From: a virus
Direction: 5' to 3' (one strand)
Length of the DNA stretch: 38,449 nucleotides
Virus record (IMG/VR): IMGVR_UViG_3300042860_002168
Location: 1 to 38,449 of that record
Part shown: piece by piece, positions 15,349 through 31,611 of the stretch
Position numbering within the stretch: position 1 is the stretch's first letter
How the letters are laid out: each line of letters begins with the position of its first letter
Position numbers and translations under genes: made by a program
The notes under the pieces: model-generated
What the model was told of the DNA's origin: nothing
Databases searched by the model: none
The model's input: the letters and a program-made list of their open reading frames with translations, nothing else

Positions 15349-16325
15349 TCATTCTTCCTTGTTTCGTCCAGCAAACGCTTTTAATTCGTCGGCCAACAGC
15401 GCGATCACTCTGCCGTCCATGCGTCGCGTTTTTATAAGACGCTGCATAACAATCAGGGTGGCATCAGTGATGCCGTCCTCTTTTTTAATGGCTTTGGTGT
15501 CGAACGGCAGGAAATGCTCTGCCTTGACAGTACTCTTTTTGCCCGCCATCATTCCCGCCACCATCGTCCCAAGTTTGGCGATGGCAACGCTTTCTATGTT
15601 GTACTTTGCAATATCATGCTTCTCAAGATACTTGAGCGCTGCCTTCACGTCGCGAATTGGCTGCTTCCCAAATTGGTCCGCATGCCATCTATCGTCCTTA
15701 TAATCAGACGCCGAAAGACGAAAGTAGATGTCGTTCCAATTGGTAAGCGCCTTCAGGAATTTCCTGGCTTGGTCTTCTAACTGTTCTGCGATAGACCCTG
15801 CGGCTTGCTCCTCGCTTTTTTTGCTGCGTTAGCGGCCTCCTTGACTTCCGCATCTTGTTCAGCAGCAATGAACTCAACCACTTTGGCAATGGCAGCGCGA
15901 GGCAGCCCCTTAGTGTCGTCCAGCTCCCAGTCGCCTAGATCAGTCCATTCGCCATCAATCATACCTTGACCTCGTGAGCGCACGAAGGCCGTTACCATGC
16001 GAGCATTCGTGGCCTCAACGGACGTGCCGCTGGTAATCATGGCCATGGTTTCGTCAGTGAAGTCAGCAAGCAACTCTGCTTCGGTGATAGAACCACCGCC
16101 TTGCAGCAGCGCAAATGCCTCGTCGAGAGGAATGTCTTTGCTCGTGGCGATACGCTTGGCCAATTGCACGGCACGAATGGTCGCTTGGCTTTGAAGCTTA
16201 CTGATCTCCTCCTGTTCAATGGCTTCAGCCACGAGCCAGCCATTGTATTTCTTCAGGCGAATCTCAGGCGTCAGTTGAAAATAGTCTTCAGCCTTGGTTT
16301 GCAGAAGGAAGCTGTATTTGCTCAT
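15349..16325 (-). CDS. tail assembly chaperone, -1 frameshift product (G/GT-like)
   Basis: Long product made by a -1 slip at 15816-15822. The first frame runs from the ATG at 16325 (MSKYSFLLQTKAEDYFQL) through residue 170. After A-AAA-AAA the ribosome continues in the -1 frame (KKSEEQAAGSIAEQLEDQ, then FLKALTNWNDIYFRLSAS, then VKAALKYLEKHDIAKYN) to the stop at 15349, giving about 325 residues. The second frame is open from the slip site but has no ATG, and its first GTG (15648) lies well inside. This is the standard arrangement just before the tape measure gene in siphoviruses, where the T-like tail binds tape measure and tube subunits. An in-frame TTG at 16331 is a less likely start. Confidence 0.85.
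15777..16325 (-). CDS. tail assembly chaperone, short unshifted product (G-like)
   Basis: Unshifted reading from the ATG at 16325 to TAG at 15777-15779, 182 residues. It is acidic and mostly helical (YNGWLVAEAIEQEEISKLQSQ, then ELLADFTDETMAMI, then AEQDAEVKEAANAAKKARS) as G-type tail chaperones are. It should be the majority product and coat the tape measure during tail assembly without ending up in the virion. It overlaps the 87-residue gene upstream by 38 nt and has no clear ribosome site, so it may depend on coupling. Confidence 0.85.
   Translation of the reverse strand: MSKYSFLLQTKAEDYFQLTPEIRLKKYNGWLVAEAIEQEEISKLQSQATIRAVQLAKRIATSKDIPLDEAFALLQGGGSITEAELLADFTDETMAMITSGTSVEATNARMVTAFVRSRGQGMIDGEWTDLGDWELDDTKGLPRAAIAKVVEFIAAEQDAEVKEAANAAKKARSKPQGLSQNS
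15815..15822 (-). promoter_or_regulatory. slippery heptamer A-AAA-AAA(G) for programmed -1 frameshift
   Basis: The minus strand carries seven A residues followed by G. In the chaperone frame it reads GC(A) AAA AAA G, so both tRNAs can slip back one base and re-pair perfectly. The slip lies 13 codons before the zero-frame stop. The downstream frame is open for 155 codons. Position directly upstream of the tape measure gene makes this the expected G/GT recoding site. I did not find an equally clear stem-loop just 3' of it. Confidence 0.85.
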
Positions 16326-16551
16326 GATCAAGAATGTTTAACAGGGCATTGAATACCTTCACCCGTTCATGGCTTGAGCGAAACTCCTTAGGAATTTCTA
16401 CCAGAAACGAATGATTGTCGTCTGCAATTCTAATGGTCGATTCCCTGCAGGAAATCAAGCACAACACGCCCGCTTGCAAGGCCATTCCTTCTATTTCATT
16501 GTTGATTGCGTGAACCGTAGAGTCAGAGCTATGGAGGTAGTCAATTTTCAT
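16288..16551 (-). CDS. hypothetical 87-residue protein in tail module
   Basis: ATG at 16551 overlaps the stop of the upstream gene (ATGA), and the 3' end overlaps the chaperone gene by 38 nt. The product (MKIDYLHSSDSTVHAINNEI, then LCLISCRESTIRIADDNHSFL) is a small alpha/beta protein without recognisable motifs. The first half reads like a short beta-hairpin protein (K-I-x-Y-L-x-S-S-x-V/I) that often precedes tail chaperones, but I cannot name a family. The tight overlaps on both sides are the main support for coding. Confidence 0.6.
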   Translation of the reverse strand: MKIDYLHSSDSTVHAINNEIEGMALQAGVLCLISCRESTIRIADDNHSFLVEIPKEFRSSHERVKVFNALLNILDHEQIQLPSANQG

Positions 16552-22266: not shown

Positions 22267-22550
22267 AGCCCTTCGATTTGTTGTTCAATGCCGGTCATCA
22301 CATAACTTTTTGCAATAGCCTCAGCTTCAAAGACCAGCATTTTGACTGGTTCAAAATACTCATGGGGCCTGTCATAGGCATTGCGCACAAAGATGTGGGT
22401 TTCATCAAGACGCCCATTCTTGAAGTGCTGCTCTTCGACTAGCCGCCAGTTGGAAGTGTCACGATGCTCATGCGCGGAAAGAATGCACAGAGCCTTCATG
22501 ATGCCAATGCCGTCTTCTTCTTCTTCAATGACGCGGACGTATTCGCTCAC
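22239..22550 (-). CDS. hypothetical acidic 103-residue protein
   Basis: GTG start at 22550 overlaps the stop of the frameshifted gene upstream (GTGA). The product (MSEYVRVIEEEEDGIGIMKAL, CILSAHEHRDTSNWRLVEEQ, HIFVRNAYDRPHEYFEPVKM) is acidic and ends with GLQDDDDDED. The last 28 nt overlap tail-to-tail with the XRE gene. A K-A-L-C-I-L-S and R-N-A-Y-D-R-P pattern suggests a compact alpha/beta protein, but I recognise no family. Its place between the protease and portal blocks gives no firm clue. Confidence 0.6.
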   Translation of the reverse strand: MSEYVRVIEEEEDGIGIMKALCILSAHEHRDTSNWRLVEEQHFKNGRLDETHIFVRNAYDRPHEYFEPVKMLVFEAEAIAKSYVMTGIEQQIEGLQDDDDDED

Positions 22551-23154
22551 GATTGTTCCTTGCGGCTTTCCACCATCTTAATAATCCGATTGGCCCACGC
22601 CCTACCAGCATCACCTCCCCATAAGAGCCATGCGTGAAATCCAGCATCACCTTCTCCTCCGGCTTTATTCTTTTCATGCCTTGAAAAGAACGCTGCCATG
22701 CGCTTAATCGTTTCGTAGCTCACCTTCTCCCCATTGGCCAAGCTTGTCGCTCTAGCAACGCCACTGCCAATGCCTTGCTTGCCAGCTTCTTGCGTGGTCA
22801 GCCCGCCTTTGCCGTGTTTCTTGCGAAGTTCTAGTCCGCGACGTGCGGCGGATCGAACAGACGATGGAGGGGCGAACGATTCAGCGTCGCCCCTTAAGCC
22901 TTTCCCGAATCGCAGCTCTCCTCTTCTTCCATTGCCTCTTCTTCTTCCAGCACTTGACGAATGAAGGCCCGCATGTAGTCTTCGCTAGCGTCCTTCTTTT
23001 TCATGCTCATACCAGCTTCGCTAAGAGCAATGGCAACAGCGCGTCGATAATCTGTGATCTTTTCACCGCTACTGCTTTTGAGAGTTCCTGCCTTGAACTC
23101 TTTCATGACGCGAGCGATTTTGACCTGCTTGGCCTTTTTAGTCTTGGGTGTCAT
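22547..23154 (-). CDS. DUF6496-like protein fused by -1 frameshift to a phage 'GLELRKK' domain
   Basis: Reading from the ATG at 23154, residues 1-85 form the DUF6496-like part (KIARVMKEFKAGTLKSSSG, then YRRAVAIALSEAGMS) and an acidic helix. At 22900-22906 GGGAAAG allows a -1 slip just before the zero-frame stop. The -1 frame then gives about 117 more residues: SFAPPSSVRSAARRGLELRK, GGLTTQEAGKQGIGSGVARA, VSYETIKRMAAFFSRHEKNK and AWLLWGGDAGRAWANRII, a domain common in phage accessory proteins. That frame is open from the slip to 22547 yet has no ATG/GTG/TTG before 22741, which is inside the domain. Total about 202 residues. Role unknown; it lies between the head-protease block and the sugar cassette. 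Confidence 0.75.
22869..22906 (-). promoter_or_regulatory. programmed -1 frameshift signal: GGGAAAG, 6-nt spacer, GC hairpin
   Basis: Minus strand: heptamer GGGAAAG (22906-22900) in phase as G GGA AAG, spacer GCTTAA which contains the zero-frame stop, then a stem GGGGCGA (22893-22887) with TCGCCCC (22875-22869), 7 bp, loop 11 nt. GGGAAAG is the slip sequence of lambda G/GT. The spacing of 6 nt is optimal for a stimulatory structure. An alternative pairing with a bulged T extends the stem to 9 bp. All three elements are read directly from sequence. Confidence 0.8.
22894..23154 (-). CDS. DUF6496-like small protein (unshifted product)
   Basis: 86 residues from the ATG at 23154 to TAA at 22894-22896. 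It starts MTPKTKKAKQVKIARVM and has the E-F-K-x-G-x-L-K-S-S-S-G and A-I-A-L-S-E-A-G core found in many small phage and giant-virus proteins (DUF6496, function unknown). The C-terminus is acidic (LEEEEAMEEEESCDSGKA). It would be the majority product if recoding at 22900-22906 is partial. The divergent HNH gene begins only 42 bp upstream. Confidence 0.75.
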   Translation of the reverse strand: MTPKTKKAKQVKIARVMKEFKAGTLKSSSGEKITDYRRAVAIALSEAGMSMKKKDASEDYMRAFIRQVLEEEEAMEEEESCDSGKA

Positions 23155-28868: not shown

Positions 28869-29546
28869 CTATACTGGCACCGCTTGCGGTTGCTGCCTGA
28901 AGTAGCGCACAGAACAGCGGCACCTAGCGCCGCATTCACAACGCTGTCCCGGCAGTGGCACGCTTCCAATGGGGACAACGCCACGAGCGGCATAGCGCAA
29001 GCAATCTTCGCAGTGCTTGGCTTGCTCGTCCAAGATGCGCCGCATTAAGGAATAGCCTTGTTCTTGCTGTCTGATTTCGGCTCCCAACCAGTAACTGCCA
29101 CGAACGCTTTGAGCGTATAGGCCAATGCGAGCCAAAGCCATGGGAGCAGAAACGCGACCGCCAAGCAAATCGGAGGCAAAATTCGCAAGAAAATCATATT
29201 CCAAGCGAAGCCTTTGACCCACGCGACCATATTCTGCACTGCCCATACCAGCTTTGCCTCCATGGCCAATAATTGCTGCTTGAATGTGGGCGGCTTTAAT
29301 AGCTTCTCGCACGCTTCCTTGCCACTGGTCAAGAGTGATTGATCCATTGCTGAGCATGCGCGTGAAACGCTTAAGCGAAGCTTCCAGCTTATCAATGCGT
29401 CCGTCGACAAGCTTTTGCACAGAAGCTTGGCTCAGGAATTTGCCACGTTCGTCCCGATAGCGTCCAGTGTTACGGTCGTAAGACCATGCAGCGTCCATTC
29501 TGCTAGACAACACTGCTTCTGCAAATGCGCTGAGGTCATTCAGCAT
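28869..29546 (-). CDS. MuF-like minor head protein
   Basis: Start at ATG 29546 (MLNDLSAFAEAVL), overlapping the portal stop by 11 nt; a frame-extending start at 29600 would overlap the portal gene more deeply. 225 residues. It has a helical N-terminal part (RGKFLSQASVQKLVDGRIDK, then LSNGSITLDQWQGSVREAIK) and a C-terminal Cys-rich end, KHCEDCLRYAARGVVPIGSV, then RCECGARCRCSVRYF. D/E-x-C-x-x-C...C-x-C near the end is the common tail of MuF/SPP1 gp7-type head-morphogenesis proteins. Position just after the portal is standard. Confidence 0.75.
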   Translation of the reverse strand: MLNDLSAFAEAVLSSRMDAAWSYDRNTGRYRDERGKFLSQASVQKLVDGRIDKLEASLKRFTRMLSNGSITLDQWQGSVREAIKAAHIQAAIIGHGGKAGMGSAEYGRVGQRLRLEYDFLANFASDLLGGRVSAPMALARIGLYAQSVRGSYWLGAEIRQQEQGYSLMRRILDEQAKHCEDCLRYAARGVVPIGSVPLPGQRCECGARCRCSVRYFRQQPQAVPV

Positions 29547-31611
29547 TGTCGGCTTCCAGGATTTCCTTGAACTTGACAGGAGCTTCCTCCTTCCATTCAC
29601 TCAAAGCCTTGTCAATGTCAGCCTCCGTAATAAAAGCTTCCTCGTCAATGTTGCCAAGGATCATGCCTTCTACTTTCATGGGCTCAATGGCATCGACTTT
29701 GCTACTGACCATCTTCGCCGGCCCTTTGCGTTCTGGATCGGGATCAGCTTTGCGCTTGCGAGCAACAATGGTTTGGCGCTCTTCTTTGCTCATGGCTTGA
29801 GCCTTCGCTTGAGGGAGGCACTTAGGCTTTCCTTCTTTCTCTTCACGAGCACCGCATGGTCCCATGATTTCGCCATTGGCCCCAATTCTCACCCATTTTT
29901 CCTTAAACCACTTATCAAGATCATCGGCATAAATTTCTTGACCATCACCCTTGAAAGCGCCGCTCATTGAACCGTGCTTTTCTTTGTACATGCGCTTGTA
30001 CTGCTGCACCACATAGCCACTGGCATAAGCTGATGGCCACACTTTGAATTTGCTTTTGGCCGCTGCCACAGCTTGACTATGCAGCTCTTTGTCGGTAAAA
30101 GTAACATCTCCGCGTCGATGCTCGAGATCCCGAGGCAAGTACAAGCCGGCAGCATCTTCCACTTCTCGACTTCCGTCCATGGGAAGAGTGCCGTTTTGCT
30201 CGTCAAGGGGATCGCGACCACCAGGAGGCACTTTCATGCCACCCCTTTCTTGAGTGGAACCACCCCCTCCAGGGGCAGGAAGTTCCCGCACCACGGACGG
30301 ATCGAGAGTGAGTTCCATTGACCACTCAGAGCCGCCGTAACGAGCGTCAGCCACTTCCTTGGGACTCAGTACTCCCAGTTGGATGTAACGCCCGTCAACG
30401 GCTGCCACGCGGGCTCTTACGTCGGCCTTCTCGCGCTCGTTCAGCTCGAACAAGTCGTTGAAATGAATGCGCCATGACTCAGGCATGCGCCCATTTGTGG
30501 GACCAGTGCGGCTGAGCATGATTAGCTCCATCAGCTTCTTGAGAGGGCGATGGAAAGTGGATTGCTGGTAGTCTGCAAGCGTCTTGGCGAAATCACGCTC
30601 TTCGCTTCTGCCGGTGGAACCAAGGCCGCTGGGGCTTTCGCCAAACAGCACTGTATGAGGAATCTTGGAGGCTCCAATGATGTCCACACGCATCTTCTCG
30701 AGAATTTCTCCCACGCCTCCAAAGTTTCTGCTGATAAAAGCAAGCTCTTCTTTTTCTGCGTCAATGGCGTAGCCGCGATAAACGCTCTTGCTCATATCAT
30801 TTAGTACGAGACGATCACGCACGTCTTTTTCTTTCCCAGCAGCCAGCATTTGAGCCAAGCCCTTAATCTTGTGAACGAAAATGTCAAACTCACACAACAG
30901 CGTGGCCGAGGCATTTAGGCCAGTCCAGTAGTGCTTAAAGCTTTCGTAGACAGTTTGCAAACTGCTCATTCCCCATCCATAGTTCCTTTGCCTAATGCGA
31001 TAGGGAAGCCAGTCACCGTCAAAACGCAAAATCCTATCTTTATGGATGTAGGTGAGTTGTGGCTGGCGAATGAGGTCGCCTGAAATGATTTGATAATATG
31101 TTGCCTTGGAGTAGTCGTATAGATTTTCTTCGTTAATCACTGGTGCAATTTGCCAACGGTCAAGCACTTCCATGCCTTCAACGGCATAAATGCGGCTCTT
31201 GTCTACTGGCTGATCCGCTGGACGCCCATCGTCGATGTAGAGCAGGATGACGGACCCCCCATAGAGCCGAGCATTCTTGGAAGCCAGCATGAAATTCTCG
31301 AGGATGTGCAGATCCTCAATAGTTTGTTCAATGCCCACCACCTCCTCGGCAGCGGCACCCTCGCCACCAAACAGCACTTTGAAGCCTTTGCGGGTGGCCT
31401 GCTCGGCATAAATGTCTACAATGCGGCGTGGAAGCCATTCGCCGTACAGAGCTTCCAGCTCTTCTTGAGCCAAGAAGACGATGGGCTGGGCAGTGGTTTG
31501 CAGGCTTTTGTCACGGCCTTTAATGCCCATGCCCGTGAGCGCATTGGCAAGGCCGTCCGCTCGCAGACCAGCTTCGTTCGCATGGCCAAGATCTACTGCT
31601 TCTTCCGACAT
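29536..31611 (-). CDS. portal protein (DUF1073-like) with C-terminal accessory domains
   Basis: 691 residues, ATG at 31611. Residues 1-450 are a DUF1073-type portal: PIVFLAQEELEALYGEWLPR, RIVDIYAEQATRKGF, NARLYGGSVILLYIDDGRP, then IPHTVLFGESPSGLGSTGRSE, ending near WSMELTLDPSVVRELPAPGGG. The C-terminal 230 residues are unusual for a portal: KFKVWPSAYASGYVVQQYKR, DLDKWFKEKWVRIGANGEIM / GPCGAREEKEGKPKCLP (DUF5872-like), and an acidic tail. An in-frame ATG at 30237 with AAGGGG upstream might release this part separately (weak). The portal forms the packaging ring; the extension may be an internal head passenger. It starts the late operon opposite the plus-strand nuclease gene. Confidence 0.88.
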   Translation of the reverse strand: MSEEAVDLGHANEAGLRADGLANALTGMGIKGRDKSLQTTAQPIVFLAQEELEALYGEWLPRRIVDIYAEQATRKGFKVLFGGEGAAAEEVVGIEQTIEDLHILENFMLASKNARLYGGSVILLYIDDGRPADQPVDKSRIYAVEGMEVLDRWQIAPVINEENLYDYSKATYYQIISGDLIRQPQLTYIHKDRILRFDGDWLPYRIRQRNYGWGMSSLQTVYESFKHYWTGLNASATLLCEFDIFVHKIKGLAQMLAAGKEKDVRDRLVLNDMSKSVYRGYAIDAEKEELAFISRNFGGVGEILEKMRVDIIGASKIPHTVLFGESPSGLGSTGRSEERDFAKTLADYQQSTFHRPLKKLMELIMLSRTGPTNGRMPESWRIHFNDLFELNEREKADVRARVAAVDGRYIQLGVLSPKEVADARYGGSEWSMELTLDPSVVRELPAPGGGGSTQERGGMKVPPGGRDPLDEQNGTLPMDGSREVEDAAGLYLPRDLEHRRGDVTFTDKELHSQAVAAAKSKFKVWPSAYASGYVVQQYKRMYKEKHGSMSGAFKGDGQEIYADDLDKWFKEKWVRIGANGEIMGPCGAREEKEGKPKCLPQAKAQAMSKEERQTIVARKRKADPDPERKGPAKMVSSKVDAIEPMKVEGMILGNIDEEAFITEADIDKALSEWKEEAPVKFKEILEADNAE

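Follow-up and report, generated by a model that had tools for sequence, protein, structure and literature searches.

How many proteins does a small gene in the head block of a cyanophage genome encode, and how would the ribosome reach the second? The genome, a virus record of 38,449 bases analysed over its whole length and called the window here, belongs to a cyanosiphovirus resembling Synechococcus phage S-CBS4. The two phages share 88.5% identity in the major capsid protein and 57% in the large terminase, and near the site their genes follow one order (portal, minor head, glycosyl transferase, the gene in question, a small gene, prohead protease, another small gene, capsid), which places the gene between the portal and minor head genes and those for the prohead protease and the major capsid protein. 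The initial annotation of this DNA had proposed that a programmed -1 frameshift fuses two overlapping reading frames of the gene, giving products of 86 and about 202 residues. We assessed this proposal by comparison with relatives.

A candidate frameshift site in a DUF6496 gene

The zero frame (23154..22894, minus strand) is an ATG-initiated frame of 86 codons closed by TAA. Its product consists of a basic core (pI 10.3) and an acidic tail (pI 4.1), and the label "DUF6496-like" attached to it earlier proved apt, the Pfam match (PF20106) lying above the curated cut-off (27.2 bits against 24, E 5e-6). Close to the end of this frame the heptamer GGGAAAG (22906..22900, minus strand) is read in the phase G GGA AAG (TCG GGA AAG GCT TAA), one codon ahead of the stop TAA (22894..22896, minus strand). 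It is followed by a potential hairpin with the 5' arm AGGGGCGA (22887..22894, minus strand) and the 3' arm TCGCCCCT (22868..22875, minus strand). The initial annotation had described a heptamer in the right phase and a 7-bp hairpin after a 6-nt spacer; these are present, and the GC-rich 7-bp stem can be extended to 8 bp with an 11-nt loop and a 5-nt spacer. The -1 frame (22547..22900, minus strand) stays open until a TGA at 22549..22547, and slippage would lead through a K-x-L-R-G-D trans-frame junction into a predicted helical domain of 115 residues, completing a 202-residue product. The part encoded in the -1 frame matches the family phrog_2859 (E 2e-17). As had been claimed, this frame holds no ATG, GTG or TTG until deep inside the domain, the first being a TTG at 22741.

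Two further features of the site carry less information. The sequence AGGAG (22918..22922, minus strand), 11 nt upstream of the heptamer, is a possible Shine-Dalgarno-like stimulator, and such a match occurs upstream in 82 of 131 pooled loci among the matches listed, a count without a control that Glu-rich coding would also explain. The fold energy of the window hairpin alone (81 nt) is not significant (z -1.26). Read from the window by itself, without relatives, the site is suggestive only.

The window also has a tail assembly chaperone pair (15349-16331, minus strand) beside the tape measure gene. This pair has its own -1 site, GC(A AAA AAA) GCG at about 15822, from which the -1 frame is open on through a 99-aa ORF; it is the tail-chaperone recoding site that the initial annotation had expected. 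The presence of this separate pair rules out the head-block gene as the tail chaperone.

The slippery heptamer is kept in register among relatives

Relatives were collected in two ways. Two IMG/VR scans by protein similarity yielded 94 distinct loci, of which 74 have DUF6496 and the domain in the -1 register, 12 have the two fused in frame, 2 show the other register and 6 lack a DUF6496 match. Another scan used a DNA pattern in which AAAG, the stop and the stem were the only fixed elements and the three bases before AAAG were free. Loci L165-L277 come from a pattern with AAAG and GGGG/CCCC built in, and their stem and AAAG statistics are circular; the main numbers rest on the protein-fetched loci, the pattern set contributing just its free first three bases. 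Counts of synonymous sites, start codons and junctions pool both sources, and the pooled set comprises, among the matches listed, 148 distinct loci, with 132 frameshift-type and 11 fused ones in it.

An in-phase slippery heptamer stands at the same place in 74/74 protein-fetched loci of the -1 register, and it is for this reason that we accept a programmed frameshift. The heptamer takes three forms in these loci, A AAA AAG in 52 (three of them directly before TAG), G GGA AAG in 18 and C CCA AAG in 4. On the tree the first triplet switches class at least 16 times and is homopolymeric throughout. The codon that provides the first base of the heptamer specifies varying amino acids (S, M, L, Q, A and E for G; S, P and C for C), and its third base fits the heptamer always. 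Every readable match of the pattern scan, among those listed, encodes the DUF6496-plus-domain family, and the three free bases are a homopolymer in all of them. The zero-frame stop is at the same place in 127 of 131 pooled loci and right after AAG in 4 (among the matches listed). Overall, heptamer class and register are kept in at least about 130 distinct loci.

The cultured phage S-CBS4 is one of them: its sequence reads AGA AAA AAG GGC TAA and then GGGGCGACGCTGAAGGCTTCGCCCC, with the same stem as the window. It is annotated with two hypothetical proteins, gp018 and gp019, the start of gp019 being placed inside the domain. The two should be one frameshifted gene, and the database entry H2BCR0 is probably the 102-aa product of gp019. 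In the S-CBS4 record (HQ698895, 5693-6345) gp019 lacks the conserved domain start RGDAEGFAPP.

A sequencing or assembly indel, or a real frameshift mutation, could in principle have split what is truly one in-frame fusion, a doubt that the initial annotation had itself raised. In-frame fused relatives do exist, and two loci (L007 and L117) resemble one-base length variants at the slip site. However, the register is identical in the 74 protein-fetched loci and in the wider set, across many assemblies and in S-CBS4, and in the fused relatives the heptamer is missing and the differences go beyond an indel, so that we regard this explanation as having a negligible chance of being correct. L007 and L117 are in the third register and are either sequencing errors or recent fusions; the same holds for L144, in which the frames are joined with the A run still there.

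A mixed mRNA pool made by RNA polymerase slipping on an A run would also join the frames, and about 70% of the loci (among the matches listed) do have a run of six A. Against this, GGGAAAG and CCCAAAG contain no run longer than three, occupy the same place and interchange repeatedly with the A form on the tree, and a hairpin at ribosomal spacing with an adjacent stop is a hallmark of ribosomal frameshifting. Transcriptional slippage is thus highly improbable, and from the three interchangeable heptamers, the stem, the stop and the register we infer that slippage would occur on the ribosome.

The downstream hairpin is under constraint and covaries

The two arms found in the window pair in the relatives as well. 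Over 48 aligned sequences 98.4% of the cells in the stem are paired, against 53-69% in controls with slid pairing, and the covariation was matched in 0/500 shuffles; RNAalifold recovers the identical stem unaided. Among the 74 protein-fetched -1 loci the GGGG/CCCC pairs are nearly invariant, and one locus has exchanged G-C for A-U through two simultaneous amino-acid changes. The fifth pair is more variable (C-G in 43, A-U in 18, U-G in 6, G-U in 1 and a mismatch in 6 of the 74), the compensatory changes in the stem being C-G to A-U and G-C to A-U. For the main compensatory pair, 4.5 of 5 independent contrasts on well-supported branches agree, which is too few for significance.

The codons that make up the stem are constrained beyond the protein that they encode. 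Synonymous variation is near zero at stem codons and normal elsewhere: the Arg codon is AGG in all 74 protein-fetched loci and in 123/123 pooled frameshift loci (among the matches listed), and the Ala/Ser codon ends in CC. In two loci, L314 and L316, C CCA AAG still occupies the usual position but the standard stem is absent or different, and another stimulator may be used. Comparison among relatives shows the signal, the phase and the hairpin of the predicted frameshift site.

The -1 frame and the junction are under selection

The domain has a pN/pS of 0.17 when read in the -1 frame and of 1.6-2.0 in the other two frames (pooled loci listed). The -1 codon past the shift is Leu, preceding Arg, in 124/127 pooled loci among the matches listed. 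The peptide RGDAESFAPP is kept at the protein level, with Ser codons switching between AGC and TCN. Comparison of the relatives shows that both frames, and the junction as well, are under selection.

These data also bear on the possibility of separate translation of the domain, whether ribosomes re-initiate at the zero-frame stop or use a non-standard start codon within the -1 frame. The overlap of the ORFs and the annotated start inside the S-CBS4 domain would fit separate translation, as would a TTG or GTG upstream of the domain in some loci. Among the matches listed, however, 88 of 131 pooled loci have no ATG, GTG or TTG ahead of the domain, 128 have no ATG there, and 7 have a -1 frame that does not open until the heptamer. 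Moreover, RGDAESFAPP lies upstream of any usual start, and separate translation gives no reason for the conservation of the heptamer class. We therefore consider it very unlikely.

Fused relatives keep the peptide and lose the signal

The relatives with both frames joined provide a natural control. Their junction peptide is nearly the same as that of the frameshift loci (RGDAESFSPP, with a few substitutions), but the heptamer is lost, the stem is mostly broken and the Arg codon is free of constraint, being AGG in 3/12 loci. Because these relatives keep the peptide and drop the signal, they show that the signal is maintained for frameshifting and not for the protein.

Well-supported branches force at least four changes to the fused state on the tree, inside a clade that is mainly of the frameshift type. 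The simplest reading, on a tree whose root is not fixed by an outgroup, is that frameshifting was repeatedly replaced by fusion and the signal then lost. Since at least four lineages have given up the short product by fusing the frames, a fixed ratio of short to long product is not indispensable.

The added domain is a mobile module of phage head genes

Structures were predicted for the domain frame and for a natural in-frame relative (L048), in place of the frameshift product. The AlphaFold model of the basic domain is all-helical (pLDDT 86, pTM 0.79), which rules out an Ig-like extension with its immunoglobulin fold. The domain shows the conserved pattern A.RGLxxR...GVxRA...M..F.RH...W.LWGG...WA together with its significant profile match to phrog_2859. 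Elsewhere it forms the N-terminus of XkdF-type prohead proteases (L286, L309) and the C-terminus of a portal (L349), and it accompanies head maturation protease regions in L312 and L327 and a match to a major head protein in L306. A structure search of viral models (BFVD) gave 56 matches below 1e-3, including prohead proteases, XkdF proteins and portals. The same domain, with E values down to 8e-21, is carried by XkdF prohead proteases or portals of Limnohabitans phage DC31, Vibrio phages, HRTV-4 and HGTV-1; these share the gene neighbourhood of the window but have the domain as an in-frame fusion or with its own ATG. Prohead proteases, portals and a major head protein all carry it, which makes the domain a mobile module of the head operon. 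What had been called a phage-specific domain is thus better described as a module that recurs on these head proteins.

Access by frameshifting is confined to the S-CBS4-like clade; outside it the domain starts from its own ATG or forms part of an in-frame fusion. The initial annotation had asked whether homologues give the domain its own ATG and fail to conserve the heptamer: close homologues do the opposite, and a domain with its own ATG or in a fusion is found only in distant relatives outside the clade.

In Pfam and NCBIfam we found no entry for the domain, which is covered by phrog_2859 only. A PDB sequence search and Foldseek gave no significant relative for the L048 fusion or the window domain; lambda cI-like matches had E values of 3.7-6 and were dropped. 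In a search of one genome per GTDB species only 8 relatives were found, all in metagenome-assembled genomes.

In the BFVD models and loci L286-L364, where it sits on prohead proteases, portals and one major head protein, the mobile helical domain is about 100 residues long. Other small modules were seen in head genes. The window portal protein (29536-31611, minus strand) has a C-terminal DUF5872 segment at residues 506-615, another small accessory module of a head gene. In L173 (2222-2725) an insert upstream of a C CCA AAG site lengthens the zero-frame product; it may be a DUF6582-like phage head module, which would fit mosaic exchange of small head modules.

A predicted two-product gene and its possible role in head assembly

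The relatives' heptamer, the covarying stem and the loss of both in fused relatives support the proposed programmed -1 ribosomal frameshift, which would yield the DUF6496 protein in a short form and in a longer one extended by the helical domain; we put the probability of this reading at roughly 0.9. Ribosomes translating the DUF6496 gene would meet X XXA AAG just ahead of the stop codon and would be paused by the hairpin that begins 5-6 nt downstream, and a fraction of them would slip back by one base and continue in the -1 frame, appending the domain. Frameshifting would presumably be partial, giving two proteins with a common N-terminus, a short form of 86 residues that probably predominates and a rarer long form of 202 residues.

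GGGAAAG is also the heptamer of lambda G/GT, and the window gene resembles that system further in the -1 direction, in a shift near the 3' end of a small gene and in short and extended forms sharing an N-terminus. It differs in its position in the head block, not between the genes for the major tail protein and the tape measure, in its protein family and in the stable hairpin directly downstream. The lambda frameshift produces the tail assembly chaperone proteins gpG and gpGT (Xu, Hendrix and Duda, 2004, as cited in PMC10885494 and PMC3711429). C-terminal domains added by frameshifting are known from gene 10 of T7/T3, phage A2, Listeria phage PSA and Ig-like extensions (PMC5009743). As in those cases, recoding would add a domain to part of the product, the same domain occurs in frame elsewhere, and an in-frame fusion can replace the frameshift; in contrast to them, the base protein is a small DUF6496 protein and not a major capsid or tail protein. 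The major head protein of phage A2 offers the parallel of a -1 frameshift in a head gene, although its second product is a virion component, whereas the long form here is predicted from sequence.

The position and neighbourhood of the gene and the company that the domain keeps elsewhere point to a role in head assembly. We see about even odds that the two products act there, the short form as a bulk component and the long form at low copy number, with the domain docking the DUF6496 part at the prohead protease, portal or head protein, much as gpGT acts beside gpG. More tentatively, and with somewhat less than an even chance, the site may be a ratio-setting switch in head assembly, the head-side counterpart of gpG/gpGT, conserved throughout the S-CBS4-like cyanosiphoviruses; of a DUF6496 assembly factor made in bulk, a fixed minority would then carry a docking module found on prohead proteases and portals too.

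The frameshift could also be real and the ratio of its products without function, an out-of-frame domain having been captured by recombination and simply expressed in this way, as suggested for phage Ig-like extensions. The viability of at least four independent in-frame fusions and the mobility of the domain among head genes favour this view, and the same indifference has been described for Ig-like domains (PMC5009743). Yet the site has been kept over large divergence, with heptamer turnover and compensatory stem changes, though a single-base change could fuse the frames, and the zero-frame stop lies at most one codon from the heptamer in every member of the set (among the matches listed). 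A functionless ratio seems less likely than not, but has an appreciable chance.

Programmed -1 frameshifting in phages is already known; the DUF6496-plus-domain gene family was not found on record. A literature search that covered few subscription journals found no paper that names DUF6496 and, for frameshifting together with prohead proteases, Synechococcus phages or cyanophages, or head morphogenesis, no such case, in keeping with the earlier statement that this use of frameshifting is not described.

At present the gene is annotated as two hypothetical proteins, the second with its start cut off, so that the predicted real product is missing from databases. The finding also draws attention to a mobile domain, absent from Pfam and NCBIfam, that many phage head proteins carry. 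For phages it would add a deeply conserved family of -1 frameshift genes outside the tail chaperone and major capsid genes, one with its own natural control, at least four lineages having joined the frames and shed the signal afterwards, and one directly testable in culture with S-CBS4 and its host Synechococcus sp. CB0101.
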